DNA of 32,422 nucleotides from a virus: positions 1 through 32,422 of IMG/VR virus record IMGVR_UViG_3300022858_000100. One strand, given 5' to 3'. Of this stretch, positions 1,481 through 32,422 are shown in pieces (position 1 is the stretch's first letter; the number at the start of each line of letters is the position of its first letter). Both the position numbers and the translations under genes were made by a program. Below the pieces are notes generated by a model. The model was given only the letters and a program-made list of their open reading frames with translations. It was not told the DNA's origin and ran no database searches.

Positions 1481-1554
1481 TAAAGAAACTATTGCTTTCT
1501 AGTAGATAGTAGCGTATAGTAGGAAGTACTGGCGAATAAATAACCCCTCATTTT

Positions 1555-1722
1555 ATGCACCAGACAACCTACATTCCGAGCCGCCTACAGAGGCGACACT
1601 CTCAATTCGAGCAATTGAATAAGGTCTTTATGACCGCGATTGCTATGTTCTTAGTAATGTCTATTTTGATTTTGATTTTGCCAAAAGTCCCGGAAGTAAT
1701 TTACTTTTATAAAAACTGTTAA
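1555..1722 (+). CDS. Small single-pass membrane protein
   Basis: A 55-residue protein with a basic N-terminus (RLQRRH at residues 10-15) and one strongly hydrophobic helix at about residues 24-42 (VFMTAIAMFLVMSILILIL), followed by a short polar tail. The start is supported by TAAC 10 nt upstream and by a leader (TAACCCCTC) like those of the genes at 2412 and 6618. Function unknown. A topology of N-in with one helix could fit a small regulatory peptide or a holin-like protein, but there is no specific evidence. It ends one base before the next ATG. Confidence 0.6.
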   Translation: MHQTTYIPSRLQRRHSQFEQLNKVFMTAIAMFLVMSILILILPKVPEVIYFYKNC

Positions 1723-1723
1723 T

Positions 1724-1870
1724 ATGGAAAAATACTTTTGTCCTAAGTGTGGCGGAGAAGCACACCCGGAGGAAATGCTTGTCGGTCGGACAACTCATGC
1801 AAACGAGGACGATGAGTTTGAAACCTTCCTTATCTGTAGCGAATGCGGACATGAGGAAAATGTTAGTTGA
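1724..1870 (+). CDS. Zinc-ribbon small protein
   Basis: A 48-residue acidic protein with two knuckles, CPKC (residues 6-9) and CSEC (about residues 38-41), separated by about 28 residues. This is a rubredoxin/zinc-ribbon arrangement likely to bind one zinc ion. It starts one base after the preceding stop and ends with TGA. Small zinc ribbons of this kind are common in phage early regions and often bind nucleic acid or host transcription proteins. The exact role here is unknown. Confidence 0.65.
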   Translation: MEKYFCPKCGGEAHPEEMLVGRTTHANEDDEFETFLICSECGHEENVS

Positions 1871-1988
1871 TGGTAGAATTCCCTTACAGAATGGGGACAA
1901 AATTAGCTTCCCTCCGCTTAACCCTTGCGACACGATGCAAGCCAAAAGACTTTCTTTTAAAAAAATAGCATCAAAAGGCAACGGTTAA
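1851..1988 (+). CDS. Small hypothetical protein overlapping the zinc ribbon
   Basis: A 45-residue frame (42 if it starts at ATG 1860) overlapping the end of the zinc-ribbon gene. It reads MLVDGRIPLQNGDKISFPP and ends with a basic KKIASKGNG tail and a TAA. Its composition looks more protein-like than the alternative frame at 1870-1968. No TAAC signal precedes it, as is usual here for overlapping, coupled genes. Function unknown. Confidence 0.4.
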   Translation: MRKMLVDGRIPLQNGDKISFPPLNPCDTMQAKRLSFKKIASKGNG

Positions 1989-2050
1989 GTATGGGATTCT
2001 GCTCTCAACAAGTGCCTCGCGCATATCCGCCTTTTATTATCACAACACAA

Positions 2051-2079
2051 TTGCCGGGGTCGGAGAATTGGGATATAAT
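2051..2079 (+). promoter_or_regulatory. Sigma-70-type promoter, early operon
   Basis: TTGCCG (2051-2056), a 17-nt spacer and a perfect TATAAT (2074-2079). Transcription would begin near 2086 and run through the palindrome into the recombination and replication genes. Confidence 0.6.
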
Positions 2080-2137
2080 GATATTGCTTTTCGTAGAAGT
2101 ACCACAACTCCCGGCGATGAGGCGCTGGGTTTTTGTG

Positions 2138-2179
2138 GGTGTATAACATTCTATACGATCGTATAAGATTCTATACACC
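2138..2179 (+). promoter_or_regulatory. 42-bp interrupted palindrome (operator or RNA hairpin)
   Basis: The outer arms GGTGTATA / TATACACC and the perfect inner 14-mer TATACGATCGTATA are symmetric about position 2158.5. Only the 6-nt joints differ, so 17 of 21 positions are symmetric. The half-sites also read as direct repeats of ATTCTATAC. It lies about 60 nt downstream of the promoter, where a repressor could block elongation. As RNA it would form a long hairpin, and no T-tract follows it. Confidence 0.6.
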
Positions 2180-2411
2180 TAAAAAGCCCGCGTCATGCTT
2201 TGGCAAATTTTAGCTTTCGCTGGGCTTTGCAAGCAATGTCTCGAGCTTTCAGGGGGCTTGTGCCGACAGACAAAATGAGGTTTTAAAGGCAATCTTACTA
2301 TATTACATAAAAACATTTTGGAGTCAAACGCAACCCGAAAGGATTATTAAGGCTTGGCGAATAGTAGTAAATAGGATAACGTAGGAGTACGTATTTATAA
2401 CCCCTTGTATT

Positions 2412-3452
2412 ATGGCAAAGGAAACAAAGTCGAAGGCATTGTCGACTAAAAAGCAAGATGCTAGTTTTGCAATGACTTTCGGAGAGTCGGAGCTTAACTT
2501 GATTAAGGAAACTATTACTCCGGGTGCAACTCAAACAGAATTCAATCTGTTTGTTTACGATGCACAAAGCAGAGGTTTAAATCCTCTTAGAAAGGAGATC
2601 TATTGGGTGCAAAGAGAAAACAGCTTCAAGAAACCTGACGGTAGCTGGGGAAAGAAGAAGGTTTCTTCTCATCAAGTCGGAATTGATGGCTTTCGAAAGG
2701 TTGCTCAATCAACGGGTGAGTATGAGGGACAGGCTGAAATTCGCTATGGGGAAGATATTGAACTTTTTGGAATACACGTCCCTGAATATGCGGAGGTTGG
2801 CGTACGCCGAAAGGGATTCACAGAGCCTCTTTTTGCTCGAGCTTACTTTGTAGAACACGCTCAAGCCTACGAGGATAAATACAAAAAAGGTGTAAAAAAA
2901 CTAGGTTCTATGTGGGCAAAAATGCCTCGCCTAATGATCGCAAAGTGCGCGGAGGCTCTTGCTTTGAGAAAATCATTTCCAGATTCGTTATCAGGTCTTT
3001 ATACAACCGACGAAATGTCGTCTGCTGACAACGATGTTGAGGTCAAAGAGGTGACACCCAAAACGGCAGCCACCCCAAAGCTCAAAGAGGTTGACCCGAA
3101 AACAGGAGAGATTAAACAAGAAGATTTTGATCTTGAAACACCTATCACAGACTCAAAGCCTCAATGCGCTACCAGGACTCAAGAAAAGCAGTACGCGGAG
3201 CTTATGGATAAACTAGGGCTTCTTATGAGTTGGACTCCAACGGCGACTCAGCAAATGATGGTAAAGGGTCTTGAAAGCCTGAAGGCGAAAGCCTTTGAGG
3301 ATTTATCTGAAGTGATGGCGGGCAAACTTATCGCGAAAATCGAGCAGAAAATCAAAGAAAAAGAGGTTGATGCAGAAACAAAGGTCAAAGAGGAAGTGAG
3401 TCCAGAAGATGTCGCAGCCGTGTTTGATTCTACTGTTGAGGATGTAAAATAA
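2412..3452 (+). CDS. bet: Bet/RecT-family single-strand annealing protein
   Basis: A 346-residue annealase. The lambda-Bet family signatures are clear: GIDGFRKVA at residues 90-98, the WAKMP...AKCAEALALRK block at about 168-188, and LSGLYTTDEM at 193-202. These proteins anneal complementary single strands during recombination-dependent replication and repair. The C-terminal third (about 205-346) is charged and low in conservation, as is usual. The start has TAAC 10 nt upstream. No alkaline exonuclease partner or single-strand binding protein is recognisable next to it, which is unusual for a Bet operon. The adjacent Gp157-like gene fits a recombination/replication cluster. Confidence 0.85.
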   Translation: MAKETKSKALSTKKQDASFAMTFGESELNLIKETITPGATQTEFNLFVYDAQSRGLNPLRKEIYWVQRENSFKKPDGSWGKKKVSSHQVGIDGFRKVAQSTGEYEGQAEIRYGEDIELFGIHVPEYAEVGVRRKGFTEPLFARAYFVEHAQAYEDKYKKGVKKLGSMWAKMPRLMIAKCAEALALRKSFPDSLSGLYTTDEMSSADNDVEVKEVTPKTAATPKLKEVDPKTGEIKQEDFDLETPITDSKPQCATRTQEKQYAELMDKLGLLMSWTPTATQQMMVKGLESLKAKAFEDLSEVMAGKLIAKIEQKIKEKEVDAETKVKEEVSPEDVAAVFDSTVEDVK

Positions 3453-3477
3453 TAACTAGCATTAACTAAAATTAACT

Positions 3478-3972
3478 ATGACTGATTCACTTATCGTAAA
3501 CAACAATTATAAAGACCTACTTGTGAATGTTGTTGACGCATCAACCGGGGAGCTTGCCGAGACTGATCTAATGAAGCTCGACGAAATAGACTGCAAGCCC
3601 GCCGAGAAAACTAACGCAATCGCCCAGGTGTTCAAACTGTTTGAAGTCGACGAGAAACAGGTTGAGGATAAAATCAAGGCGATGCAAATGGAGCTAATGG
3701 ATTTTAGGCGTAAGAAAGAAGCCGTGCGGAATCTTATGGCTGAGTCTATGGCTGAGAATGGCTTGAAGAAAATGGAAACTATTTACTTTGCCGCAACATT
3801 CAAGAAGAACCCGCCTCGGCTTGTAATCGAGGAAGGTGCGAATGTTGATCAATATACCCGGATCGAAACTGTCGAATCTGTAGACAAAATCGCAATCAAG
3901 CAAGACTTGAAAGCCGGGAAGCCGGTTGAAGGTTGCAGACTCGAACAGACTGAAAGATTAGAAATTAAATAA
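3478..3972 (+). CDS. Gp157-like siphovirus protein
   Basis: A 164-residue protein with the pattern of the siphovirus Gp157 family. It has an N-terminal helical part with a coiled segment (IAQVFKLFEVDEKQVEDKIKAM, broken here, about residues 46-70), a basic stretch (DFRRKKEAVRNLM), and a C-terminal part ending DLKAGKPVEGCRLE, close to the family's lysine-glycine-x-x-x-glycine-cysteine/alanine ending. Members sit beside recombinases in phage genomes and have been linked to resistance to host defence, but the biochemistry is unclear. TAAC is 11 nt before the ATG. Confidence 0.7.
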   Translation: MTDSLIVNNNYKDLLVNVVDASTGELAETDLMKLDEIDCKPAEKTNAIAQVFKLFEVDEKQVEDKIKAMQMELMDFRRKKEAVRNLMAESMAENGLKKMETIYFAATFKKNPPRLVIEEGANVDQYTRIETVESVDKIAIKQDLKAGKPVEGCRLEQTERLEIK

Positions 3973-3984
3973 CAATAAAACGCT

Positions 3985-4359
3985 ATGAAGAAACCACAAA
4001 CAATTAGAACAAATCCGGATATTCAATGGGTGTTTAACGAAGGAGTGGAGAAAAATAAAAGAATAAAAACTATTTTAAATGAGATTGGTTGCATTGCTGA
4101 TAAGCAAAAAGACTTACACAAAACAATAACCTTGGATATGTTTTTTACAATGTTTGGAGGGGCAAACGGTTCTAAAACAAAACTCGCTGCATTTAGTAAT
4201 TCGTATTTTTTAAGTAACTTCAAGGACTTAAAGAATTTTAAAATCACGAAATTGCGTGATCGAGTAGCAAAGGATCATAGATATATAAGGTCTTTACAGG
4301 CTAGAATAAAAGAGTTGGAGAGGTACGAGCCACACCCATACGACGAAGAATATTTATAA
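3985..4359 (+). CDS. Hypothetical protein, early operon
   Basis: A 124-residue basic protein that I do not recognise. The C-terminal half (about residues 85-115, ITKLRDRVAKDHRYIRSLQ) is strongly helical and charged and may form a coiled coil. The middle has an FFTMFGGANGSKTKLAAF stretch. No cysteines form a metal site. It is 12 nt downstream of the Gp157-like gene with TAAC 11 nt before the ATG, so it is probably co-transcribed with the recombination genes. Confidence 0.65.
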   Translation: MKKPQTIRTNPDIQWVFNEGVEKNKRIKTILNEIGCIADKQKDLHKTITLDMFFTMFGGANGSKTKLAAFSNSYFLSNFKDLKNFKITKLRDRVAKDHRYIRSLQARIKELERYEPHPYDEEYL

Positions 4360-4392
4360 CACACCCTTTTAGCCACATATCCCTACTAAACA

Positions 4393-4647
4393 ATGTTAAA
4401 ACTAACGAAAAAACAGGAGAAGGAAGTTCGATTGATGATAAAATGTTTTGAGTCTCTGAATATAGACAAGCCCAGGATTGAGTTTGAAATCGTAGCACCC
4501 GACCCGGATATTCCGAGAAAGTATTGGGGATATTTACGCTTTTGCATTGTTGGTTTTATTGATGGCGAAGAAAGGGCTGTCGACGGAATGTTTAAGGATA
4601 TGAACGAGCTTTGCAAAAGATGGGAAAATTTTTTTTCCCCGAATTAG
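4393..4647 (+). CDS. Hypothetical protein
   Basis: An 84-residue protein, unrecognised. It has an N-terminal basic helix (LTKKQEKEVRLMIKCFESL), a central beta-like segment (YWGYLRFCIVGFIDG) and an acidic helical end. It lacks the TAAC signal. A minus-strand frame over the same bases is a shadow. It lies within the early operon between other small unknown genes. Confidence 0.55.
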   Translation: MLKLTKKQEKEVRLMIKCFESLNIDKPRIEFEIVAPDPDIPRKYWGYLRFCIVGFIDGEERAVDGMFKDMNELCKRWENFFSPN

Positions 4648-4663
4648 ATTTTAACAAAACACC

Positions 4664-4981
4664 ATGGCAGCTAAACTTACAGACCTCGGGAGGCTTAGAA
4701 AAGCCTTGAGGCAACAGCAGGGGGCAACAGAGGATGGAATTCTGCACTTTCATAATGATTACAAAGGTAATTTTTATTATTTTGACGCTTTTCTTTTTAG
4801 AAATCATTTCAGAAAGGAAGATATTTTGTTTTCAAATATTTACGAGGAGTTGTTTCACAATGCCCACAATTGGAAGTTTATCAGGCGTTGCGCAATTGAG
4901 GAGTTTTTTGATAATAGTTTTGATGCCGCGATTAAATACCTGGTAGATGAATACGAAAAACGGAATGGGAAAATAATTTAA
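4664..4981 (+). CDS. Hypothetical protein
   Basis: A 105-residue protein, unrecognised. It is rich in Phe, Tyr, His and Asn (FHNDYKGNFYYFDAFLF), with a helical acidic C-terminus (AIKYLVDEYEKRNGKII). TAAC lies 8 nt before the ATG, supporting this start. An alternative +1-frame ORF at 4734-4946 is a shadow. Confidence 0.6.
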   Translation: MAAKLTDLGRLRKALRQQQGATEDGILHFHNDYKGNFYYFDAFLFRNHFRKEDILFSNIYEELFHNAHNWKFIRRCAIEEFFDNSFDAAIKYLVDEYEKRNGKII

Positions 4982-4997
4982 TTTTTAACAACACACT

Positions 4998-5138
4998 ATG
5001 ATGGAAAAATCAATGTTTCAAAAGCACGTCCTGGACATAATGCTCGCCGTAAAGGAAACCGCGTTGAAAGTCGGCGCGGCGATAATGTCGGAACACGAAA
5101 CTTATATGCAGGAATTACAAAATAACCCTACAAAGTAA
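4998..5138 (+). CDS. Small hypothetical helical protein
   Basis: A 46-residue protein (MMEKSMFQKHVLDIMLAV...) that looks like one or two amphipathic helices. TAAC is 8 nt before the first ATG. Its TAA overlaps the next ATG (TAATG), so it is probably coupled to the helix-turn-helix gene that follows. Function unknown. Confidence 0.6.
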   Translation: MMEKSMFQKHVLDIMLAVKETALKVGAAIMSEHETYMQELQNNPTK

Positions 5139-5341: not shown

Positions 5342-5358
5342 CAGGGGTTTGGTATGCT
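5331..5358 (+). promoter_or_regulatory. Possible promoter before the replication gene
   Basis: TTGCAA (5331-5336), a 16-nt spacer and an extended -10, TGG-TATGCT (hexamer 5353-5358). Each hexamer matches the consensus at four of six bases. It overlaps the end of the helix-turn-helix gene and would drive the replication protein. Confidence 0.35.
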
Positions 5359-5369
5359 CAAATTACTAA

Positions 5370-5440: not shown

Positions 5441-5489
5441 ACTCCAAAGGGCGCAGAGGCGGGGATTTGTTTAATATTAAAAAAATCGC

Positions 5490-6275: not shown

Positions 6276-6285
6276 AAAAATTGCA

Positions 6286-6600: not shown

Positions 6601-6617
6601 AATTAACCCCTTGTCTT

Positions 6618-7004: not shown

Positions 7005-7014
7005 TACCAAAACA

Positions 7015-7233
7015 ATGACAAAACTCACTAAAAAGGAAAAACAATTGAACCGGATCGAGGAAAAGCTCGACTTTATGATTGACGGGCTTTCCCGGACGAT
7101 CGTGAGGAAAAACGCCCTGGGCGCGGCTGTCCAAGAAAAGATCACGGGGCGGCAACTGTTTGAGATGTGGAAGAATAAAAAGAAGGTTGATTCTCGCAAA
7201 AAGATCCCCATTGAAAAAGTGCAAACCCTTTAA
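7015..7233 (+). CDS. Small basic hypothetical protein
   Basis: A 72-residue lysine-rich protein with a helical N-terminal half (LTKKEKQLNRIEEKLDFMID) that may form a coiled coil, and a basic C-terminus. It may bind nucleic acid but no family is recognised. It starts 10 nt after the preceding stop without a clear TAAC (TAATACC is in that position). A minus-strand frame over the region is a shadow. Confidence 0.55.
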   Translation: MTKLTKKEKQLNRIEEKLDFMIDGLSRTIVRKNALGAAVQEKITGRQLFEMWKNKKKVDSRKKIPIEKVQTL

Positions 7234-7276
7234 CCCAAACCCCATGACAGACTCAAAAACAGTAGAGAAGATAATA
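7230..7276 (+). repeat. 47-bp direct repeat, copy 1 (leader plus 5' coding)
   Basis: Identical over 47 nt to 7882-7928. It contains the TAACCC leader, the ATG and the first eleven codons (MTDSKTVEKII) of two otherwise different genes. Confidence 0.9.
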
Positions 7277-7396: not shown

Positions 7397-7406
7397 CCCC
7401 TTATTT

Positions 7407-7441
7407 CCCTCTTGGGCAGAGGATTAACAAGTAAGATTATG
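7407..7441 (+). repeat. 35-bp repeated hairpin leader, copy 1
   Basis: Identical to 9015-9049. It contains a small hairpin, CCTCT-TGGGC-AGAGG, then GATTAACAAG and the ATG of the following gene. In both copies the segment is also open in frame from an upstream TTG. Confidence 0.9.
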
Positions 7442-7668: not shown

Positions 7669-7708
7669 ATTATAAACCTATTAACAAGACATTATTAACA
7701 ACAATACT

Positions 7709-7885
7709 ATGGGAGAAATAGCAGACATGATGTTGAGCGGAGTGTTATGCGCACAATGTGGAGTAACTTTACAATGTGCAGCCGACCACGGATTTCCTAT
7801 CCTATGTGACGACTGTTACAGCGATTTATCGAAAGGCGATAGAGAGTGCAACGTCAAGGAATCAGATTACCCAACCACTCATTAA
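7709..7885 (+). CDS. Zinc-binding small phage protein
   Basis: A 58-residue protein. It starts GEIADMMLSGVLCAQCG, a start commonly seen in small phage zinc proteins, and carries paired cysteines CAQC and CDDC with an intervening Cys and His (CAADHG), enough for one zinc site. TAAC is 9 nt upstream. The stop lies inside the 47-bp repeat that leads the next gene. An overlapping longer frame that reads through into the next gene is the wrong phase here and is rejected. The molecular role is unknown. Confidence 0.75.
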   Translation: MGEIADMMLSGVLCAQCGVTLQCAADHGFPILCDDCYSDLSKGDRECNVKESDYPTTH

Positions 7886-7928
7886 CCCAAACCCCATGAC
7901 AGACTCAAAAACAGTAGAGAAGATAATA
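7882..7928 (+). repeat. 47-bp direct repeat, copy 2 (leader plus 5' coding)
   Basis: An exact second copy of 7230-7276. It carries the previous gene's stop codon, the TAACCC leader and the first eleven codons of the gene at 7896. Confidence 0.9.
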
Positions 7929-8366
7929 GACAAACTCTCAAACAAAGAATCCACAGCGATAAGAAGGCTGTTTAATTCTCATCATGGAGGAGACAAGTCA
8001 TGTTCGGCTTGTGAGTCTTTTTACGAGGAGCTTGCAAAGATATTCCCACCTCCCCCTGTCCTAATAGGTGATGTGTTGGAGAAGATGTGGAAGTTTGGAG
8101 ATGCTTCTTTGAGAAGTAACGAGATGTTTAAAATATGGGCTAAGTGTGGGCTTGATAAATCCTTGAATCAGATAGCCGAGTGTGGGTTTGAGGAAATATA
8201 TATCACAAATTGTTGCAAACTTAGTGGATACCACAAAAACAAAGACGGGTCGTATAGTTGTGCCCATTGCAACAAGCCCGCAGACCTCAATATGCATGAA
8301 GAACAACTCAAAGACCCAGCAGCCAGAGAACTGTTTGAATTCCTAGCAGATATATTTTTAACTTAA
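7896..8366 (+). CDS. Hypothetical cysteine-rich protein
   Basis: A 156-residue protein with several potential metal ligands: CSAC near residue 36, CC near 106 and CAHC near 122 with nearby His. It may hold one or two zinc sites. The first eleven residues (MTDSKTVEKII) are a duplicate of the DUF1660-like protein's N-terminus. After that the sequences differ completely, so this start (TAAC 9 nt upstream) is well supported over a longer upstream extension. Function unknown. Confidence 0.65.
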   Translation: MTDSKTVEKIIDKLSNKESTAIRRLFNSHHGGDKSCSACESFYEELAKIFPPPPVLIGDVLEKMWKFGDASLRSNEMFKIWAKCGLDKSLNQIAECGFEEIYITNCCKLSGYHKNKDGSYSCAHCNKPADLNMHEEQLKDPAARELFEFLADIFLT

Positions 8367-8371: not shown

Positions 8372-9004
8372 ATGATTCTAAAAGATGACAATGGGAAAGC
8401 ACTCCCAAAGAAAGTGCAAAAACGAGTGAATGATTTTATAAATCACTTACCGAAAGTACCTTGGTTTAATCCTTCTCCTGATTTAAAAAAGGAGGATGTT
8501 GAAAAACAGGTAAAATTCACGCTCGATTGTTTTGGCGTAAAGGCAAAAGTTAAGTACGGAAAGCTACAAAAACAAGAGGACTGGGATTCCGCTAGGGATT
8601 CCGCTTGGGCTTCCGCTTGGGATTCCGCTTGGGATTCCGCTTGGGATTCCGCTAGGGCTTCCGCTTGGGATTCCGCTTGGGCTTCCGCTTGGGCTTCCGC
8701 TAGGGCTTCCGCTTGGGATTCCGCTTGGGCTTCCGCTTGGGATTCCGCTAGGGATTCCGCTAGGGATTCCGCTTGGGATTCCGCTAGGGATTCCGCTTGG
8801 GATTCCGCTTGGGATTCCGCTTGGGCTTCCGTAGAGGTCTTATTAAAAGATAATGCAGACTTCAAAAAGAAATACCCAAATGGAGCGTTTAAACAATTGT
8901 TTAAACTTTGGGAAATGGGATTATATCCTGTCGGAGTATTAAAGAATAAGAAATTTGTAATATATGTTCCACCTTGTAAAACAGATTTCCCTTTTGAGAT
9001 TTAG
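8372..9004 (+). CDS. Tetrapeptide-repeat protein (W/R-D/A-S-A array)
   Basis: A 210-residue protein in three parts. Residues 1-70 are a basic N-terminal region with no recognised fold. Residues 71-154 are 21 tandem copies of a four-residue unit, Trp/Arg-Asp/Ala-Ser-Ala. Residues 155-210 are a C-terminal segment containing LLKDNADFKKKYPNG and LWEMGLYPVGVL. The repeat is likely helical, with the bulky residue every fourth position forming a stripe. Similar WDSA-type arrays occur in other phage and bacterial hypothetical proteins, without known function. It starts 5 nt after the preceding stop. Confidence 0.7.
   Translation: MILKDDNGKALPKKVQKRVNDFINHLPKVPWFNPSPDLKKEDVEKQVKFTLDCFGVKAKVKYGKLQKQEDWDSARDSAWASAWDSAWDSAWDSARASAWDSAWASAWASARASAWDSAWASAWDSARDSARDSAWDSARDSAWDSAWDSAWASVEVLLKDNADFKKKYPNGAFKQLFKLWEMGLYPVGVLKNKKFVIYVPPCKTDFPFEI
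8582..8833 (+). repeat. 12-nt minisatellite, 21 units, two binary positions
   Basis: All units read [T/A]GGG[A/C]TTCCGCT. Position 1 switches TGG (Trp, 15 units) to AGG (Arg, 6 units). Position 5 switches GAT (Asp, 14 units) to GCT (Ala, 7 units). No other base varies, apart from the final codon of the last unit (GTA). All four combinations occur in irregular order. Confidence 0.95.
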
Positions 9005-9014
9005 CCCTATATCA

Positions 9015-9049
9015 CCCTCTTGGGCAGAGGATTAACAAGTAAGATTATG
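9015..9049 (+). repeat. 35-bp repeated hairpin leader, copy 2
   Basis: An exact copy of 7407-7441, immediately before and including the ATG of the next gene. Confidence 0.9.
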
Positions 9050-9329: not shown

Positions 9330-9344
9330 TTAACAAGAACCACT

Positions 9345-9548: not shown

Positions 9549-9574
9549 TTTATATATTTTTAACCCATATAAAT

Positions 9575-9814: not shown

Positions 9815-9843
9815 AATTTTAAATAATCTAACCAAATAAGAAA

Positions 9844-10714: not shown

Positions 10715-12054
10715 TGGAACTTGAATTTGAACCCACCAAGAAGCAGTTCAAGGCTTGGGAGTATTTAAACGACGGTGAAACAACCGAGCTTGGTTATGGG
10801 GGCGGTGCGGGAGGTGGTAAGTCTTGGCTGGGATGTTTTTGGCAAGCATCAATGAGAGAGGCGCACAAGGGGACTAGAGGATTACTTGGGAGGCGTGAAT
10901 TAAAGAATTTGAAGCGGACAACCATCACGACCTTTTTCAAAATGGCTGACTACTATGGCTGGGTAGCAGAAAAACATTTCACCTACAAAGAACGGTCCGG
11001 GATTATCGAATGGCACAATGGAGGGGAAATTTTATTGATGGATTTGGGATGGATGCCGAGCGATCCACTTTACTTGAGGCTAGGAGGGCTTGAGCTTACA
11101 GATGGATTCGTTGACGAGAGCAATGAGGTCAAACCGATGGCTATAGAGATTTTGAAAACAAGAATCGGGCGGCAACTCAATGAGGAATATGGATTGATCC
11201 CAAAACTACTCGAAACATTCAATCCGGATAAAGGGCATGTCTATACGAGATATTACAAACCTTTCAAGGATAAGAATTCACCAAGACACAGGAGGTTTAT
11301 ACCAGCTTTGTCGAAGGACAATCCTCACTTGCCGAAATCTTATATCAAGCAGTTAGAAAATGCTGACGAGATAACTAAACAAAGGCTTTTATTCGGAAAC
11401 TTTGATTATGACGATGATCCGGCTGTCCTACTTGACCACGATGTTATTCTTGATCTCTTTACTAATACAGCAGAGGAAAGCGAGGAAAAATTTATCAGTT
11501 GCGATGTCGCGCGAATGGGACAAGACAAGACTGTTATTGCGTATTGGGAAGGGTTGCAATGCAAGAAAATAGACACCTACGCGAAAACAAAAGTGAACGA
11601 AACGATTGATTTCCTCAATGCTTGCTGTAGAAAGTATGGGGTACGAAGATCAAATGTTGTGGTCGATGAGGATGGTGTGGGCGGCGGGGTTGTCGATGGT
11701 TTAGAAGGTTGCAGGGGGTTTGTGAATGGATCAAAAGCGATCAAGCCAATGGGCTTAACGAACGTCCCAAATTACTCTAATTTAAAGACCCAATGTTATT
11801 TTGAATTTGCGCGGCTTGCAAAAAATGGTAAAATGGGCATAGAACAGATTGAAATTTCAGACAAGGAACTCTTAATTGAGGAGCTAGGACAAATTAAACA
11901 AAAAGACCCCGACAAAGATGGCAAAATATCACTTATCGGCAAAGACGTTATCAAAGAAAATATTGGAAGATCACCCGACCTTTCAGACGCTTTGATGATG
12001 AGGATGTATTTTGAAGTGAGAGGCACACCAATATTAACACCTATATTTGTATGA
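10714..12054 (+). CDS. terL: Terminase large subunit
   Basis: A 446-residue packaging motor. The Walker A motif is GGGAGGGKS at residues 29-37, and the Walker B motif is GFVDE at 131-135 with catalytic Glu135. The C-terminal RNase H-fold nuclease has its acidic residues: D264 (ISCDVARMGQD), D318 (VVVDEDGVGGG) and D422/D425 (SPDLSDAL). ATPase and nuclease are therefore both intact. The ATG at 10714 overlaps the previous stop. A longer frame from 10630 would run inside the small terminase and is not needed. The stop overlaps the portal start (ATGA). Confidence 0.93.
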   Translation: MELEFEPTKKQFKAWEYLNDGETTELGYGGGAGGGKSWLGCFWQASMREAHKGTRGLLGRRELKNLKRTTITTFFKMADYYGWVAEKHFTYKERSGIIEWHNGGEILLMDLGWMPSDPLYLRLGGLELTDGFVDESNEVKPMAIEILKTRIGRQLNEEYGLIPKLLETFNPDKGHVYTRYYKPFKDKNSPRHRRFIPALSKDNPHLPKSYIKQLENADEITKQRLLFGNFDYDDDPAVLLDHDVILDLFTNTAEESEEKFISCDVARMGQDKTVIAYWEGLQCKKIDTYAKTKVNETIDFLNACCRKYGVRRSNVVVDEDGVGGGVVDGLEGCRGFVNGSKAIKPMGLTNVPNYSNLKTQCYFEFARLAKNGKMGIEQIEISDKELLIEELGQIKQKDPDKDGKISLIGKDVIKENIGRSPDLSDALMMRMYFEVRGTPILTPIFV

Positions 12055-13370: not shown

Positions 13371-14121
13371 AAAACTCTTACTCGACACAATCGTTAAAGC
13401 CAATGTGCGACCGCAAGGTCGAAGGTTGCGAAGACGAGAAAAAGCCCTACAAAGACAGATTAACGCGGAATTCTCGAAGCAAGCGAAAGCCGTTATCTCT
13501 AAGACAAACAGGCTACTCGGTAAAAAAGCTCTCGACGACGACATAGACAACATATTCGACAACTTGGACGATGCTGCGATGATTGACGACATAACGGTTG
13601 CGAGTGCTGGAGCGATGAAGATGGGAGCAGATTACAGAATCAAAAAATCGAAACTCGGACAGATAGGTATAGACTTTTCACTTGATCATCCACTAGCGAA
13701 TCAGTATTTAGAGACAGACCGACCCCTTGTGCTTGCCAAAATGACGCAGACGACCAAAGACCATATTAAGCCTTTAATTCAAGAGGCTGCGCGGTCTGGT
13801 CAATCGCCTCAAGAATTGGCAAAACTCATAAGGGAAAATTTTGCGTTTTCTGAGAGTAGATCACTAATGATAGCGACAAATGAGATTGGGACAGCGTATG
13901 AGTACGGGAATTATGTACCAATGACGGACGCGAAAGAAGCCGGGTATGACGTGAAGAAACAATGGCTTACGACTGGAGATGCGCAAGTTACAGACGAATG
14001 TGCAGCGAATGGGGATATGGGATGGATAGAGATTGACGAGCCGTTTGAGTCCGGGGATGATTCAGCGCCAAGAGGCGATCACCCGCGATGCAGATGCACG
14101 ACCTTGTATGAATATCAATAA
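13351..14121 (+). CDS. Phage Mu protein F-like head morphogenesis protein
   Basis: A 256-residue minor head protein. The MuF signature is in the C-terminal half: TTGDAQVTDECAAN (207-220), GWIEIDEPFESG, and the closing HPRCRC (244-249). The N-terminal half is basic and helical and would sit near the portal. The ATG at 13351 is preferred to an upstream TTG at 13345. It overlaps the portal end by 20 nt, consistent with coupled translation and the absence of a TAAC signal. Confidence 0.85.
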   Translation: MICPCYEKLLLDTIVKANVRPQGRRLRRREKALQRQINAEFSKQAKAVISKTNRLLGKKALDDDIDNIFDNLDDAAMIDDITVASAGAMKMGADYRIKKSKLGQIGIDFSLDHPLANQYLETDRPLVLAKMTQTTKDHIKPLIQEAARSGQSPQELAKLIRENFAFSESRSLMIATNEIGTAYEYGNYVPMTDAKEAGYDVKKQWLTTGDAQVTDECAANGDMGWIEIDEPFESGDDSAPRGDHPRCRCTTLYEYQ

Positions 14122-14131
14122 CATAATCATA

Positions 14132-15355
14132 ATGAAGGACATTCAATATTTCCAAATTGGATTTAAAACCATCCCGCGCGAAAAGAAAGCGGAAGGCGGA
14201 GAATCCCTTGAAGGTTTAAAAATATCAGGCTACGCATCTACTCCAACAAAGGACAGATACAGCGATATTGTTGAACCGGAGGCTTTTAGGGAGTCGATAG
14301 TTACGAATTACAAGAACAACCCTATTATTCTATTCCAGCATGACGCGAATAGACCGATCGGGAAGGCAGTTTTTATGAATGTAGATAACAATGGGTTATT
14401 TATAAAAGCGATCATATACGACAAAGAAGTCGCCCAAAGGATTGAGCAGGGAGTATTGAGAACTTTCTCTATAGGCTTTATCCCTAAAAAAATCCGCTTT
14501 GAGGATGAGAACGGAAAGATTCTTGATCCGGCGAAGGATAATATCTGGGACGAAAGCGTCAAAAGAATCATTGAAAAGGTTGATCTTGTTGAAAATTCTA
14601 TTGTTAGCACCCCGGCGAATCCTGACGCCCTGTTTACTATGGAAAAATCAGTAAAAAGCTTTTTCTCTAAAATGGAAAAGGCTGAACTTAAAAATATCAA
14701 TAATCCTATAACTTCAAACGATATGAAGAAAAAAGAAAACTTACTAGAAGCAAAAGACGAGGGAGCTGTTGAAGAAACAACCCCAGAATCTACTGAAAAC
14801 GCTGAAACTCCAGGTGAAACCCCTGAAAGCGTTGAGGAGGCAACTCCCGCAACTCCTGCTGATGAAACAAGCGGCAAGGAGGAAGGTGCTGAAACAAACA
14901 CCGATGAGGAAGCTAAACCAACCGAAGGCGAAGAAGTGGAAGAAGAAAAAGAGGAAGAAAAACCCGAGGAAGCAAAGGAAGAAGTAGAAACCCCGGAGAA
15001 AGAAACGGAAGAAGCTCCGGCAGAAGAAAAGGTGGAGGAGGAAGCCCCTACTAAGGAGGAGGAAACTCCCGAAGAAGCAGAGGAGAAATCCCTTATCTCG
15101 AAGATAATGACCAAAGAGGGCGCGGCTGTTGCTCTAAATGCTGTTATGGCATTACAAGTAAAGGTCGCTGAATTGGAGGCTATTATCAAGGAAACGCCGA
15201 CAAAGAGGGCGCAAGCTTACTTCGAAAGCTCTGTCACAGCGCCGGAAGGTAAGAAAGTTGGCGTGGATTCTTCTATCAAAGACGAGAAAGAAGAAGAAAA
15301 ACCAAAGGAAGACAAGAAAGGGTTTATCGAAGCCCTCCAAAAAGCTGCTGTTTAA
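14132..15355 (+). CDS. HK97-family prohead protease with C-terminal scaffold region
   Basis: A 407-residue protein. Residues 1-170 are the serine protease domain that matures the procapsid: catalytic His70 in LFQHDANRPIGKA, Ser113 in LRTFSIGF, and the acidic member near Glu154 (DLVENSIVSTPAN). Residues about 205-335 are a glutamate-rich low-complexity stretch, and about 336-407 are a helical end (AVMALQVKVAELEAII) like scaffold or delta domains. The start is the ATG with TAAC 9 nt upstream. Longer frames from 14033 lie in the MuF gene. The fused layout resembles the lambda C protease with its nested scaffold. Confidence 0.85.
   Translation: MKDIQYFQIGFKTIPREKKAEGGESLEGLKISGYASTPTKDRYSDIVEPEAFRESIVTNYKNNPIILFQHDANRPIGKAVFMNVDNNGLFIKAIIYDKEVAQRIEQGVLRTFSIGFIPKKIRFEDENGKILDPAKDNIWDESVKRIIEKVDLVENSIVSTPANPDALFTMEKSVKSFFSKMEKAELKNINNPITSNDMKKKENLLEAKDEGAVEETTPESTENAETPGETPESVEEATPATPADETSGKEEGAETNTDEEAKPTEGEEVEEEKEEEKPEEAKEEVETPEKETEEAPAEEKVEEEAPTKEEETPEEAEEKSLISKIMTKEGAAVALNAVMALQVKVAELEAIIKETPTKRAQAYFESSVTAPEGKKVGVDSSIKDEKEEEKPKEDKKGFIEALQKAAV
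14723..15355 (+). CDS. Nested scaffold protein from an internal start (putative)
   Basis: An in-frame ATG (residue 198 of the protease protein, MKKKENLLEAKDE) has TAAC with a 10-nt spacer (14709-14712), exactly the start signal used by most genes in this phage. Initiation here would make a 210-residue, very acidic, helical protein lacking the protease domain. By comparison with lambda C/Nu3 and similar phages this would be the free scaffold. The extent and composition support it, and expression is inferred from the start signal. Confidence 0.6.
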   Translation: MKKKENLLEAKDEGAVEETTPESTENAETPGETPESVEEATPATPADETSGKEEGAETNTDEEAKPTEGEEVEEEKEEEKPEEAKEEVETPEKETEEAPAEEKVEEEAPTKEEETPEEAEEKSLISKIMTKEGAAVALNAVMALQVKVAELEAIIKETPTKRAQAYFESSVTAPEGKKVGVDSSIKDEKEEEKPKEDKKGFIEALQKAAV

Positions 15356-15387
15356 CAGCAAAATATTATTACTAACAAAAAAAACAA

Positions 15388-16574: not shown

Positions 16575-16600
16575 GAATCCAATTTATAACCATAAATAAT

Positions 16601-17529: not shown

Positions 17530-17547
17530 ACTTAACCTAGATATAAG

Positions 17548-21917: not shown

Positions 21918-21952
21918 TCACTTACAACATCTACAATTTAACCAAAATCAAG

Positions 21953-22192
21953 ATGTACAAAAAAATCGCACAGGTAGCAGTAAGCGCGCTCGCAGCCCTC
22001 GCAGTAATATTCGCAGGGTACGGACTCTATCAGTCAACAAGTGTCGCAAGGGTCTTGAACCAACAAGCCGGATACCAACAATGCGTTACGGACGTAAACG
22101 CTGAAATGGCGCAACAAGCTGCTCAACAGCAAGCTCAAGCTCAAGCACAAGAACAAGAACAACCTAACCCTGAAACAACAAATGAAAAATAA
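21953..22192 (+). CDS. Small membrane-anchored Gln/Ala-rich protein
   Basis: A 79-residue protein with one N-terminal membrane helix (about residues 8-25, VAVSALAALAVIFAGYGL), then a tail with QQAAQQQAQAQAQEQEQ and a single Cys. The arrangement (membrane helix plus polar tail) resembles Rz-type inner spanins only superficially, and no function can be assigned. TAAC is 10 nt upstream, and a pseudoknot-like element precedes the gene. Its stop overlaps the next gene. Confidence 0.6.
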   Translation: MYKKIAQVAVSALAALAVIFAGYGLYQSTSVARVLNQQAGYQQCVTDVNAEMAQQAAQQQAQAQAQEQEQPNPETTNEK

Positions 22193-22580
22193 ACTCCTTC
22201 TTATTATAGGAATTCCCCTCATTATTGCATCAACATTGCTTTCCCTATCTATAGCGGCGGCAAATATAGACCTTGATAAATATGACGCATTGCCAACCTG
22301 TAAAAATGACGAGGTTCAATTAGATATGAAGATCAGCTCTATTACAGACCTTCCAACTGACAGGAAATGTTTGGCTGCTGCTGATTATTTAAAGGTCAAA
22401 ACAAAATTAAAGACCGACAGGGCTACGAATCTAAAAAACAAAGGATATGAATTTGATATAAACGATAGGGATCTTTTGATGGGGATATTAGACTATGAGA
22501 TCAAGAAGAAAGGCGGGATGAGTATACAGGGAGCAACAAAAGAAAAAATAAAAATAGAACTTCTAAAATTACTTGAATAA
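22182..22580 (+). CDS. Secreted small protein (signal peptide)
   Basis: A 132-residue protein with a KNK start, a hydrophobic core (LLLIIGIPLIIASTLLSLSI) and a probable AAA cleavage site around residue 27. The mature part is about 105 residues, charged and helical, with two cysteines (near residues 40 and 63) that could form a disulfide outside the cytoplasm. It overlaps the previous stop by 11 nt. Unrecognised. It belongs to a run of exported or membrane proteins in this region. Confidence 0.6.
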   Translation: MKNKLLLIIGIPLIIASTLLSLSIAAANIDLDKYDALPTCKNDEVQLDMKISSITDLPTDRKCLAAADYLKVKTKLKTDRATNLKNKGYEFDINDRDLLMGILDYEIKKKGGMSIQGATKEKIKIELLKLLE

Positions 22581-22591
22581 CAATTTTCACC

Positions 22592-23542: not shown

Positions 23543-23837
23543 TTGCTCATTCGATACATACAAGAGAGAAACAAGCGGCTCAAAGCGGCAACATTCGACT
23601 ACAAAGACAATCACGGGAGGATCGGGCTACTACGAACCAACAGGCGGCGATTTAAGGGCTGTTCTAGGGCTTTCGCTGGCTGTTAAGGCTTATACCCTGC
23701 TCACATACGAAACTGGCATTGATATAGGCGACAAGGTGGTCATAAGCAGCGCGACATATTACGTCGAGTCAATTGAACAGCAAAATGCAGCTCCGACAAT
23801 GTTGAATAGGGCTGTTCTAATAATCAAGGAGTTATGA
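23532..23837 (+). CDS. Head closure/stopper protein (putative)
   Basis: A 101-residue small beta protein. The ending GIDIGDKVVISSATYYVESIEQQ matches the gDkV-x-Y-x-V pattern of head-closure proteins (SPP1 gp16-like). Position between the adaptor and the tail-completion protein supports the role, in which it would seal the DNA channel before tail joining. It overlaps the preceding gene by 11 nt and the next by 4 nt. Confidence 0.7.
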   Translation: MHFNCSFDTYKRETSGSKRQHSTTKTITGGSGYYEPTGGDLRAVLGLSLAVKAYTLLTYETGIDIGDKVVISSATYYVESIEQQNAAPTMLNRAVLIIKEL

Positions 23838-24636: not shown

Positions 24637-24660
24637 GTAGGCGCAAATAACCACAAAACA

Positions 24661-24876: not shown

Positions 24877-24893
24877 TCATAACCATATAAAAA

Positions 24894-26309: not shown

Positions 26310-26329
26310 TAAATTAACAAAAAAATCGC

Positions 26330-28171: not shown

Positions 28172-28172
28172 A

Positions 28173-30590
28173 ATGCTTTGGCTATATATAAATGATTCAG
28201 ACCGCACAGGTGATCTGATAAGGGATAAACTAAAAATACAGAATCAGATACAACAACGTGCTGATTCATGCGATTTTACATTGTTTCAAGGGGCGAAGCC
28301 TTCGGAGAATCAAGATGTGCAGCTTTTTGTTGGGGATACTATTGCAAGCGCAGTCGGGGCGACCATGACTTTGAACGGAAATTTTCAATCGAGCATAGGT
28401 CAATTCTATGCTGGGCAAAGATTGTTTATAAGGATAGGCGACGCTGATGAGGAAGTTGTCACCATTTTGTCTTACGATGAAGTTACTTTGACTCTTGTTT
28501 TGACCGCCGCGCCTTCTGGGGCTGTAGCTGCTGACGACAAGATCGGATTCTTATTATTCGGTGGAGTAGTTAGTCGGGTTGCAGATAAAAACATCCATGT
28601 TCTCACGAACATTGAATACAATATTGAATGCGTTGATTATACGAAAATATTCGATCGCAAACTAATTTCTGATACCTGGGAGGATAGAACCGCACGATAT
28701 ATTATAAATGATTTTTGCAATTCGGATATAAACCACAACAAGACTATTGACTCGATGAACTATGACGACAACGCGGCGATTCAAGCTGAATGGGTAGAGG
28801 GTGGCGATGGTGATAATCCAACGATAGATTCAACTAATTATTGGGAAGGGACTACTAGCGGGGATTTTGGCTGGACTTTCGGGGGAGGCTCGGCAACCTT
28901 CACAGCAAGCCCTACCTCGAGCGATGTATCTTTCTGGACTGGTGCAGCTTCCGGATCACCAACAAAGGGACTTTTCGGGTTTTGGTATAAATGTACTGAC
29001 TATACAAAGGTGACAAATTTCAAGGTTCGGATCGGGTCTGGAGCGGGCGATTATGCAGAGGCGACTATAACCCCGACTTCAAACGATGCTACTTTTTACG
29101 AAATGGATTTAAACGACGCTACTATTGCCGGTACTCCTGTTTGGACTGCTTGCGATTACCTGTCAATCATAATAACGGAAACAGCCGACAGCGCGATATT
29201 GTTCGATGGATTTAGAATATTACAAGATGATTACCTTAAGCATTACCCCCATGTTTCGGAAACCCCGGAGCTTGACGACTTCAGAAGTCCGGCGTTAAAA
29301 CCGACAAAGTTGATGCAATTGCTAGCAAAAACTTTTTCGTATGTTTGGTATATTGATTATGAGAGGTATATACATTTTGTACCTATTGAAACAGACGATT
29401 CACCTTTTGCACTTACAGATTCATCAAACAACTTCTTTGATCTGCGAATAGAGGTTGATCAAAGCCAGCTCGGGAATAGGATTATAGTGCGCGGTGGGGA
29501 GAAAACATCAGACAGCACCTATTCACAAGCAGAGCCAGGGGATGGTGCGCGTAAGGAGTGGCTACTCAAGAATAAATTCAAAAACCTTGTTGTAAAGATT
29601 GATGATCAATCTGATACTCACGCGGCGGCGGTTGCTACTACAACGACAAATATAAAAATAGTAGGACATAATCTCTCGACTGGCGACTATATCCAAAATC
29701 AAACGAGAAACAATGAGATTAGAGTAATTACTAGGATTGATGCCGACAATTTTACAGTTGAAACAATAGCGGCTCAAACGAACGGGGACACGATAACTTT
29801 CTTCACAGTTGCGAAGGGGGTGGGTATAGAGGGGCTTGTCGACGAAACGGCAGTTGGTATTGATTATGTCTATAATTCAAACGAAAAGTCTGTGCGCGCA
29901 ACTGCAAGCGAAGGGATGTTGAACCCTGGGGACGGAATTCTTTTTACTTATAGTGAGAGAGTCCCTATACAAATCAGGTATTCGAATAGTGCGAGCATAG
30001 CGGCGTTAAAAGCCCTCGGTATTGGTGATGGGATATTCGATCTTGACCCATATACAGACAGAAACATCCAGGATATAGGGACGGCTTTGGCAATAGCCGA
30101 GGCGAAGGTTAAGGAATACAGCAATGCAATTATATCCGGGAGCTTCACTACAGACCATTTTGGATTAAGGGCGGGGCAGCTTCTTACAATTACAGATTCA
30201 AATAGAGGTATTGATGAAACTTATGTAATACAGAAAGTTAAGCTAAGGCAAAAATCCGGGGAGTTTGCATCTTATTTCGTATATGATGTTTGGTTTGGGA
30301 CAACCCTGTTTGGAATCATTGAATTTTATCAAAAGCTTTTATCAACACAGGATTTGATCGAGCAGAATACCGACGACATAGTCGAAACCTATGTCGATGC
30401 GCAGGAAACAGTTGAAAGCGCTGACGTAAATATTGTGCAAAAGGAGGGCGATGAGAACGCGAAGAATACAGAGACAGTCGAATCGAGTGACGTAAACCAG
30501 GCGGTTGATTGGGCGGCGGGTGATTGGAAATTTGAAGCTTCTGTCGGTCAAACCTTAGAAAGTCGTTTTGACTTAGCGGGTTTCGCTTAA
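28173..30590 (+). CDS. Distal tail/baseplate hub protein with inserted jelly-roll domain
   Basis: An 805-residue tail-tip protein. The start is the ATG right after the tape-measure stop (an in-frame extension from 28134 lies inside that gene). The first 180 residues and residues about 350-600 resemble the beta-rich tail-hub proteins found after the tape measure. Residues about 190-350 (Trp- and Thr/Ser-rich, FGWTFGGGSATFTAS) look like an inserted carbohydrate-binding-type jelly roll, which could contact the host surface. The C-terminal part (DLIEQNTDDIVETYVDAQ) is helical, then beta. Confidence 0.65.
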   Translation: MLWLYINDSDRTGDLIRDKLKIQNQIQQRADSCDFTLFQGAKPSENQDVQLFVGDTIASAVGATMTLNGNFQSSIGQFYAGQRLFIRIGDADEEVVTILSYDEVTLTLVLTAAPSGAVAADDKIGFLLFGGVVSRVADKNIHVLTNIEYNIECVDYTKIFDRKLISDTWEDRTARYIINDFCNSDINHNKTIDSMNYDDNAAIQAEWVEGGDGDNPTIDSTNYWEGTTSGDFGWTFGGGSATFTASPTSSDVSFWTGAASGSPTKGLFGFWYKCTDYTKVTNFKVRIGSGAGDYAEATITPTSNDATFYEMDLNDATIAGTPVWTACDYLSIIITETADSAILFDGFRILQDDYLKHYPHVSETPELDDFRSPALKPTKLMQLLAKTFSYVWYIDYERYIHFVPIETDDSPFALTDSSNNFFDLRIEVDQSQLGNRIIVRGGEKTSDSTYSQAEPGDGARKEWLLKNKFKNLVVKIDDQSDTHAAAVATTTTNIKIVGHNLSTGDYIQNQTRNNEIRVITRIDADNFTVETIAAQTNGDTITFFTVAKGVGIEGLVDETAVGIDYVYNSNEKSVRATASEGMLNPGDGILFTYSERVPIQIRYSNSASIAALKALGIGDGIFDLDPYTDRNIQDIGTALAIAEAKVKEYSNAIISGSFTTDHFGLRAGQLLTITDSNRGIDETYVIQKVKLRQKSGEFASYFVYDVWFGTTLFGIIEFYQKLLSTQDLIEQNTDDIVETYVDAQETVESADVNIVQKEGDENAKNTETVESSDVNQAVDWAAGDWKFEASVGQTLESRFDLAGFA

Positions 30591-30595
30591 AATGA

Positions 30596-30601
30596 TATAA
30601 T
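30596..30601 (+). promoter_or_regulatory. Extended -10 promoter-like site before the fibre genes
   Basis: A perfect TATAAT preceded by TGA (TGATATAAT). The -10 ends 20 nt before the next ATG. A TTGACT exists at 30568-30573 but at a 22-nt spacing, too far for a normal -35. It may drive the fibre and lysis genes. Confidence 0.4.
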
Positions 30602-30620
30602 ACATTCGTAACAAAACAAT

Positions 30621-31229
30621 ATGGAAATAAAAGACACAGCAGAGATAAAAGGAATTCATACTTTGACCTTATGCAAAGCGACAAGTGAGGTAGCTCAAAA
30701 AACCCAGGAAATGATTGAGGATGTGAGAATAAGAAGGGAGCTTTTGATGAAAATAGGAGGCAATATCAAAGAGGAATTACGCACTCTCTGGGAGGAATAC
30801 CGGTATTTGGTTGGTATATTGCATAAGTATTTTAAAACACAAGAATTTGTTGTTGAGAATATAACCACAACAGTCGGGAGAAGCGTTTTAGCTCAAAGAT
30901 TGGGCGGAGATGTCACTTACACCGGAACAGTCGACTACACAGCCCTCGGTGATGATAATACTGGCGAGGTGGTCGGTGATGCAACGCTTGGAAATGAAGT
31001 TTATAGGAAGGCTTTGAGTAGCGGAACAGATGCGAGCAATATTGCTTATCTCGAAACTTTCTTCACAGCCGCAGAGGACGCGGACACTTACGAGGAATAT
31101 GGAATGTATATTGATGGTGCTGCCGGCGCAGATACCGGGCAATTATTTAATAGATTTACTCAAACAATCACAAAATCGAATGTTGAAACTTTGAATGTTC
31201 AAAGCGTGGTGACCTTCCAGAACAGCTAA
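30621..31229 (+). CDS. Tail fibre/appendage protein
   Basis: A 202-residue protein. The N-terminal 80 residues are helical and charged, likely a coiled coil. The rest has the pattern of short fibre proteins: YTALGDDNTGEVVGDATLGNEVYRKAL in parts, EEYGMYIDG, QLFNRFTQTITKS, then NVQSVVTFQN. These occur next to fibre genes in many siphoviruses. TAAC is 8 nt before the ATG. It probably links the tail tip to the fibre encoded at 31851. Confidence 0.65.
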   Translation: MEIKDTAEIKGIHTLTLCKATSEVAQKTQEMIEDVRIRRELLMKIGGNIKEELRTLWEEYRYLVGILHKYFKTQEFVVENITTTVGRSVLAQRLGGDVTYTGTVDYTALGDDNTGEVVGDATLGNEVYRKALSSGTDASNIAYLETFFTAAEDADTYEEYGMYIDGAAGADTGQLFNRFTQTITKSNVETLNVQSVVTFQNS

Positions 31230-31245
31230 AACATAACAATATGTA

Positions 31246-31839
31246 ATGTCAAGAAGTATAAACGAATTAGGCAATGTCTATGGGAAGCTAGTGGTGACGG
31301 CTGATGGGGATGTTAATAACAGACGACAGCATTTTTGGATATGTGAGTGTGAATGTGGAAGTATGACAAAAGTTTATGGTGGACACTTGAGAGCTGGCAA
31401 TACAAAATCTTGTGGTTGCCAAAAAGGAAATAAAAAACATGGAATGCGTAAAAAAAGAATATATACGATTTTTAAAGGTGTTGAGCAAAGATGTAATAAC
31501 CCCAAACAACCTGCTTATAAAGATTATGGTGGTCGTGGAATAAAATGCGAATGGAATACTTTTCAAGAGTTTTACAATGATATGAAGGAGGGTTATAGCG
31601 ACAAACTGTCGATTGACCGGACAGATAATGATGGAAATTATTGCAAAGAAAATTGTCGATGGGCGACTCCCGAGCAACAGGCTAACAACAGTCGTCATTG
31701 CAGATACTTGACTCACAAAGGAAAAACCCAGAGTGTATCAGATTGGGCGAGAGAATTGGGGGTAAATTATTGGACTTTGATTAGGAGAATCCACAGGGGG
31801 TGGTCTACGGAAAGAGCTTTACAATTTAAAGACGCATAA
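31246..31839 (+). CDS. HNH/AP2-type homing endonuclease-like protein
   Basis: A 197-residue free-standing endonuclease-like protein, not a tail component. It has a CECECG...SCGC cysteine cluster (residues 33-58), YGGRGI near 94-99, DRTDNDGNY (124-132), NCRWAT (136-141) with Q144 and N147, and a C-terminal helix-turn-helix (VSDWARELGVNYWTLIRRI, about 163-185). This set is typical of phage HNH proteins with a DNA-binding module. It is inserted between two tail fibre genes, suggesting a mobile gene. TAAC is 8 nt upstream of the chosen ATG. An ATG 5 nt earlier is followed at once by a stop. Confidence 0.8.
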   Translation: MSRSINELGNVYGKLVVTADGDVNNRRQHFWICECECGSMTKVYGGHLRAGNTKSCGCQKGNKKHGMRKKRIYTIFKGVEQRCNNPKQPAYKDYGGRGIKCEWNTFQEFYNDMKEGYSDKLSIDRTDNDGNYCKENCRWATPEQQANNSRHCRYLTHKGKTQSVSDWARELGVNYWTLIRRIHRGWSTERALQFKDA

Positions 31840-31850
31840 CAAAATAAAAT

Positions 31851-32422
31851 ATGGCTGACTTATTAGCAAATTCAACAGTAGTCGCGGCGAATCAAACTAT
31901 CACCGCCGCAGAAAGAAACGCTTTAAGACTCGACATGCTCGAGCAAGCTGGCGAATACCGTGATTCAACGGGGGCGGCAGACGCTTATGTTGTGGCTGAC
32001 GCTGCGCAAATAGTTTCACTACAAGAGGGGCAGATTGTGATTTTCAATGCAAACTTTGAAAATGGTGGCGCATCAACTTTGAACTTTGGGGCTTTCGGGG
32101 CTAAATCAATCAAGAAAAATAATAATATAGATGTCGAGGCTGGGGATATAGAGGCGGGGCAAATCGTAATTTGTAGATATGATGGCACTAATATGCAGAT
32201 GTTGACTCCTACCGCTTCTCAAATGTCTACCGCTAACTCGGACACCCTCGTGGGGGCTGGCGATGCGGATGCTTTACACACGCACGACACGCTCAAGACG
32301 CTGACTAATTGCGGACAGGGGGTGAGAGCGTCAGCAACCGCAACAGGGACAGAGAATATTGCACATGGTTTAAGTGGAATTCCTAAACAAATCTTGTTTT
32401 TTGCGGTCAATGGTACGAACGG
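31851..32422 (+). CDS. Tail fibre/receptor-binding protein, N-terminal part (3' truncated)
   Basis: 190 complete codons are present before the window ends. It starts MADLLANSTVVAANQTITAAERN, an attachment-type helix, followed by beta segments (GQIVIFNANFENGGASTLNFG), the short linker motif ANSDTLVGAGDADALHTHDTLK found in phage fibres, and the opening strand of a tip domain (AHGLSGIPKQILFFAVNG). The tip's remaining strands match the fragment at 3-113. TAAC is 10 nt upstream. It probably binds the host receptor (inferred). Confidence 0.7.
   Translation, partial: MADLLANSTVVAANQTITAAERNALRLDMLEQAGEYRDSTGAADAYVVADAAQIVSLQEGQIVIFNANFENGGASTLNFGAFGAKSIKKNNNIDVEAGDIEAGQIVICRYDGTNMQMLTPTASQMSTANSDTLVGAGDADALHTHDTLKTLTNCGQGVRASATATGTENIAHGLSGIPKQILFFAVNGTN

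Follow-up and report, generated by a model that had tools for sequence, protein, structure and literature searches.

A TAAC word upstream of start codons as a probable substitute for the Shine-Dalgarno sequence in a tailed phage and its likely host lineage within the Patescibacteria

Results

TAAC precedes phage genes at a nearly constant distance

IMG/VR record IMGVR_UViG_3300022858_000100 is a tailed phage of 32,422 bases that was analyzed over its full length (the window), and all of its main genes lie on the + strand. Most of these genes are preceded by a single tetranucleotide, TAAC, at a narrow range of distances from the ATG (Table 1). A first-pass annotation had listed 31 such starts and proposed that TAAC replaces the Shine-Dalgarno (SD) sequence across the genome. 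Each of the 31 positions read back as an ATG with TAAC at a spacer of 8 to 12 nucleotides (mode, 10). The list had overlooked the start at 8372, and two of its entries are not independent gene starts: the ATG at 14723 is internal and in frame, and the reading frame from 21803 runs for only 19 codons.

Table 1. TAAC sites and annotated genes of the window. Spacer, nucleotides between TAAC and the ATG.
Start	TAAC	Strand	Spacer	Product	Remark
1555	1541..1544	+	10
2412	2398..2401	+	10	RecT-like annealing protein
3478	3463..3466	+	11	Gp157 (Siphovirus Gp157)
3985	3970..3973	+	11		TAA doubles as upstream stop
4664	4652..4655	+	8
4998	4986..4989	+	8
5138	5123..5126	+	11
5490		+		DnaD-like loader
6618	6604..6607	+	10
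7244	7231..7234	+	9		TAA doubles as upstream stop
7439	7425..7428	+	10
7709	7696..7699	+	9
7896	7883..7886	+	9		TAA doubles as upstream stop
8372	8359..8362	+	9		absent from first-pass list
9047	9033..9036	+	10
9345	9331..9334	+	10
9575	9561..9564	+	10
9844	9829..9832	+	11
10714		+		terminase large subunit (TerL)
12051	12035..12038	+	12	portal	start and TAAC inside TerL gene
13351		+		MuF-like head protein
14132	14119..14122	+	9	S78 prohead protease	TAA doubles as upstream stop
14723	14709..14712	+	10		internal in-frame ATG, directly past S78 protease domain
15388	15373..15376	+	11	major head protein
16601	16587..16590	+	10
17548	17533..17536	+	11	1414 aa protein
21953	21939..21942	+	10
22182	22165..22168	+	13		just beyond the 8-12 range
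22592	22578..22581	+	10		TAA doubles as upstream stop
24661	24648..24651	+	9
24894	24880..24883	+	10
26330	26315..26318	+	11
26864		+		tape-measure-like protein
30621	30609..30612	+	8
31246	31234..31237	+	8	HNH endonuclease
31851	31837..31840	+	10		TAA doubles as upstream stop

A mechanical test, free of hand-picked starts, was run on the first ATGs of + strand open reading frames (ORFs) of at least 45 aa. TAAC at a spacer of 8 to 12 was present at 29 of 65 first ATGs, with 0.9 expected from other ATGs, and was found at 12 of the 21 ORFs of at least 150 aa and 11 of the 25 ORFs of 60 to 149 aa. Of the 48 starts in a fixed gene list, 30 carried the word; 2000 dinucleotide shuffles averaged 2.3 and never exceeded 9, which upholds the earlier claim of an excess over chance. 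Equal-width windows farther upstream of the 48 starts contained 1, 1, 2 and 3 copies. The hand list of starts was partly steered by the TAAC finding; the mechanical ORF test and the automatic start calls were not, and gave the same picture. Chance and base composition were considered as the source of TAAC and are ruled out by the mechanical test together with the shuffles. TAAC precedes 1 to 2.5% of the internal ATGs of the phage, and the three internal ATGs that have it are about the number expected by chance, which is why the site at 14723 was left uncounted. A nested scaffold product from this ATG is possible, the TAAC there being by itself not above chance.

The form of the element was derived from an unsupervised motif search. 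Unseeded expectation-maximization (EM) on positions -25 to -1 returned [T/A]TAAC[A/C] starting at about -15, with a log-likelihood of 45 for the phage starts versus 10 to 17 for shuffled regions. Across the TAAC sites adenine is enriched at -13 and -12 (21 of 32 each), -6 (21 of 32) and -3 (20 of 32), and guanine is depleted from -15 to -5 upstream of the phage starts. At most phage starts without TAAC the position is taken by TAAA or TAAT, which makes the element broader than the fixed word first described. That word holds, but several genes recorded as lacking it carry one of these variants, and the element is more fully described as [T/A]TAA[C>T>A, never G], placing its C 8 to 12 nucleotides upstream of the ATG.

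SD-like words were found at 0 of 36 automatically called starts versus 14% of internal ATGs, in agreement with the first-pass remark that GGAGG-type sites are essentially absent. The hallmark of SD-led initiation, a purine-rich complement of CACCUCC 5 to 10 nucleotides before most starts, was not found in the phage. At one start (window 23819-23834) AAGGAG lies three nucleotides ahead of the ATG, too near for a normal SD. The enrichment of TAAC and the depletion of SD words at starts together bear out the proposal that the one replaces the other across the genome.

The same element is found in one order of Patescibacteria

The TAAC element also precedes the own genes of one order of the Patescibacteria (candidate phyla radiation, CPR), both at isolated genes and within same-strand clusters, which supports the first-pass reading of the word as a clue to the host. 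The order was reached from a survey of Patescibacteria by way of one genome, G223. Sampling of 20 kb per genome was too shallow and at first suggested a negative; larger samples revealed G223. Many genomes of its order have a TTAAC...ATG count above that of the reversed control.

In G554, a genome of this order of which 672 kb were read, TAAC was found at 114 of 560 starts (8.0 expected), TAAT at 111 (16.8), TAAA at 101 (30.8) and TAAG at 6 (8.0). The enrichment thus depends on the fourth base (C 14.2x, T 6.6x, A 3.3x, G 0.7x), and any one-base change in the first three letters lowers it to 0.1-1.9x. AAAC is enriched 1.4x versus 14x for TAAC, unlike the A-run of a Bacteroidota-type start region. 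The exclusion of G and the near-absolute need for T-A-A exceed what a preference for unstructured or A-rich leaders would be expected to produce. EM over all G554 starts returned TTAA[CAT] with a peak at -16 to -13, and SD-like words occurred at 15 starts versus 56 expected. TAAC precedes 22% of starts in G566, 14% in G183 and 12% in G223, compared with about 1% of internal ATGs.

Phage relatives and the host lineage

A search with TerL collected 76 viral loci and 79 genome loci. The closest independent relatives (L005/L006; TerL identity, 64%) have TAAC or TAAT before most genes. Three near-identical fragments of the phage are known and were not counted as independent evidence; a DNA-level search of phage records gave no match. 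More distant TerL relatives use TAAA (Bacteroidota-type), TAAT (L083, a locus in a Candidatus Paceibacterota genome; 51%) or SD, which indicates that the start signal tracks host lineage more than the TerL tree. The genomes of the order belong to the phylum of L083 (Minisyncoccota/Patescibacteria) but G001, the genome that contains L083, is of another order.

The Patescibacteria order is likely the host lineage, judged by the motif, the tetranucleotide profile and the TerL relatives. The tetranucleotide correlation with the window was 0.57 for G554 and 0.56 for G223, the top values among bacterial genomes; Bacteroidota prophage loci gave 0.35-0.40. TerL relatives also occur within Patescibacteria genomes, at L083 and in G376 (40%). 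Searches with the portal and RecT proteins gave no host signal.

Several observations weigh against this assignment and against a uniform use of TAAC in the order. G554 was selected for its high TTAAC...ATG count and so represents an upper case within the order; another member, G571, is weak (TAAC, 7%), and no examined bacterial genome attains the 44-62% of the phage. A TerL search across 89 genomes of the order came back empty, and in the TerL tree most neighbors of the window are Bacteroidota prophages. A Spirosoma prophage (L122) has TAAC at 21% of its 19 genes. The host could therefore be an unsampled lineage of Bacteroidota, in which case TAAC would represent the phylum's A-rich -14 to -11 element in a GC-shifted form. 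Among TerL relatives, the cultured ones with good coverage come from Bacteroidota, as do most of the prophages, and in the Bacteroidota prophage loci TAAA stands at this spacing (91 of 434 versus 21.4). Yet the word in these loci is TAAA or AAAA rather than TAAC, and 20 Bacteroidota genomes showed weak signals of at most three TAAC per about 17 starts, even though most of them had been chosen for high TTAAC...ATG counts. The lower tetranucleotide correlation and the TerL relatives carried by Patescibacteria also speak against a Bacteroidota host, which we consider possible but doubtful. The absence of a TerL relative from the 89 genomes and the thin sampling of Bacteroidota are the reasons for placing the Patescibacteria order no higher than likely.

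The element is distinct from stop codons and promoters

Gene arrangement influences the use of the element. TAAC at a spacer of 8 to 13 precedes 3 of 11 overlapping or abutting phage starts versus 28 of 36 others (Fisher p = 0.004). Coupled genes had been said to lack the word, with eight starts named; none of the eight has TAAC at a spacer of 8 to 12 (10714 has one at a spacer of 27) and the statement holds as a trend, but 10265 and 26864 adjoin no listed gene. The bacterial genes behave similarly. In G554 the TAAC frequency is 10-11% at overlaps or gaps of 0-6 nucleotides, 29% at same-strand gaps of 7-20, 22% at gaps of 21-60 and 20% (26 of 130) where the upstream neighbor is on the opposite strand. 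TAAH was present at 23 of 66 overlaps and gaps of 0-6 versus 194 of 313 others (p = 6e-5).

These frequencies bear on the idea that TAA is simply the stop codon of the upstream gene, positioned for termination-reinitiation. The word does coincide with an upstream stop at 7 of the 32 sites in the phage and 8 of the 52 same-strand sites in G554, but most sites lie away from one, and the frequency in G554 is unchanged next to opposite-strand neighbors, which alone contradicts the idea. Selection acts on the fourth base (C 14x, G 0.7x), and TAAC is less frequent, not more, at overlapping genes. A stop-codon origin is barely tenable.

Neighbor-class frequencies alone leave room for one private promoter per gene, and a test for -35 words was therefore added. 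If TAAC were part of a -10 box, the genes would be transcribed singly as leaderless or near-leaderless mRNAs; the almost fixed distance between TAAC and ATG would fit such an arrangement, and boxes of the TATAAT type do end 6 nucleotides before the ATG in G376, another genome of the Patescibacteria. In G554, however, -35 words were found at 23% versus 24% in shuffled sequence, and the same test was positive in G376 (55% versus 21%). The word is TAAC, not TANNNT, its broad spacing of 8 to 12 would place +1 about 3 nucleotides ahead of the ATG, and thirty promoters would be odd in a packed, one-direction phage genome. The pairing that marks leaderless genes, a -10 box about 6 nucleotides before the ATG with a -35, is absent from the TAAC sites, which makes a promoter origin improbable. 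The lower use at couplable genes and the independence from promoter signals and stop codons are evident at the level of sequence. The G376 boxes (L361-L367) are accompanied by -35-like words, and leaderless initiation is likely in the G376 lineage.

The anti-SD is retained and a strong SD precedes rpsU

The first-pass annotation had suggested that TAAC might pair with an unusual region of 16S rRNA. In an E. coli-type helix 45, GGUUG would be a possible partner for TAACC, but helix 45 of the order reads CGGAUGG. The 16S ends of the candidate host order are canonical (CACCTCC; CATCTCC in G204), with no complement of UAAC and no GUUA or GUUG in the last 54 nucleotides. A normal or near-normal tail without such a complement makes rRNA pairing at the tail unlikely; this suggestion was not borne out, and a base-pairing element matched to an altered 16S 3' end is very improbable. 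A ribosomal protein, the other reader proposed there, is a possible alternative.

The order retains CCUCC in its 16S rRNA while SD words are depleted, and the same is presumed for the host of the phage only by way of this order. The exception is rpsU, which encodes bS21. Among 30 rpsU loci from genomes of the order (L300-L329; AAAGGAGGTG type), 25 have an SD that can pair with the 16S tail over at least 8 consecutive bases (median, 11 bp), and the other 5 are without an extended SD. The G554 rpsU SD spans 12 bp, and of the 638 genes in this genome no more than 3 have at least 8. Strong rpsU SDs also occur elsewhere in the phylum, in which some lineages use SD generally. The bS21 of the order is divergent and falls below the Pfam cut-off, and its gene products include S1-domain proteins of 373-423 aa with up to four S1 matches.

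Other features of the window

No tRNA genes were found in the 32,422 bases. A leader is duplicated almost exactly at 7404-7439 and 9012-9047 (CTCTTGGGCAGAGGATTAACAAGTAAGATTATG), and a second near-exact duplication links 7231-7275 and 7883-7927 (TTAACCCAAACCCCATGACAGACTCAAAAACAGTAGAGAAGATAATA) and takes in the first codons. The protein encoded at 8372-9004 contains many short tandem repeats with units encoded by GATTCCGCTTGG/GCTTCCGCTAGG.

Discussion

The existence, position and base specificity of the element and the depletion of SD words can be read directly from the sequences of both the phage and the bacteria. The element at -14 to -11 is probably a cis-acting, sequence-specific initiation signal that does the job of the SD and is common to the phage and its likely host lineage. 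A 30S subunit would read TAAC in the mRNA exit channel, in the platform/bS1 region, while the intact anti-SD would be masked by a bS21-containing platform. Ribosomes free of bS21 would use an SD only on rpsU, as the sole gene with a strong one, and the phage would infect the Patescibacteria order. The full model, in which a Patescibacteria lineage and its phages initiate through TTAA[C/T/A], recognized by the 30S platform (bS1, for example), with the anti-SD masked and reserved for bS21-free ribosomes on rpsU, has in our judgement an even chance of being correct.

Gene callers assume an SD; for a large group of uncultured bacteria and their phages the element supplies a rule that predicts start sites instead, and it illustrates that the start signal of a phage can point to its host lineage. 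Start finding without an SD becomes testable, as the word has four defined letters with one forbidden base (G) and can be mutated. A search of the open-access literature, with subscription journals outside its reach, found no paper on the start signals of Patescibacteria. The rpsU leaders suggest that anti-SD masking and regulation of rpsU through the anti-SD are not confined to Bacteroidota. If the model is true, initiation by an SD-independent code and autoregulation of bS21 by a circuit of this type both occur outside that phylum, and are shared with, or have converged on, the Flavobacterium system.

The closest known counterpart is the SD-less start region of Bacteroidota (PMC6847099, PMC9976891), where SD words are likewise depleted and the anti-SD is retained, as in the candidate order. 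In Flavobacterium johnsoniae, A-12/A-13 stimulate initiation, A-3/A-6 also act, and bS1 is the suspected reader (PMC6847099); the phage has adenines at the same positions around an element at -14 to -11. In Flavobacterium bS21/bS18/bS6 bind the anti-SD, and the one gene with a very strong SD is rpsU, on which bS21-free ribosomes use it (PMC9976891); the Patescibacteria order has rpsU as its exceptional gene with an extended SD. The difference is that Bacteroidota have an A-run, whereas the Patescibacteria and the phage have a sharp word, and masking of the anti-SD is here a prediction. In marine Beggiatoaceae, TAACTGA direct repeats upstream of starts also contain TAAC and seemingly replace the SD, with S1 as the proposed reader (PMC4679880). 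Those are tandem heptamers before some genes, unlike the single TAAC at fixed spacing before most phage genes, and TGA follows TAAC at 0 of 32 phage sites. Leaderless initiation from a -10 box also has a conserved word near the ATG and no SD, but the TAAC sites have no -35, a different word and a spacing that is wrong and broad. The element is therefore of a known kind, SD-less initiation with a -14 to -11 element, in a sharper form and in a new lineage.

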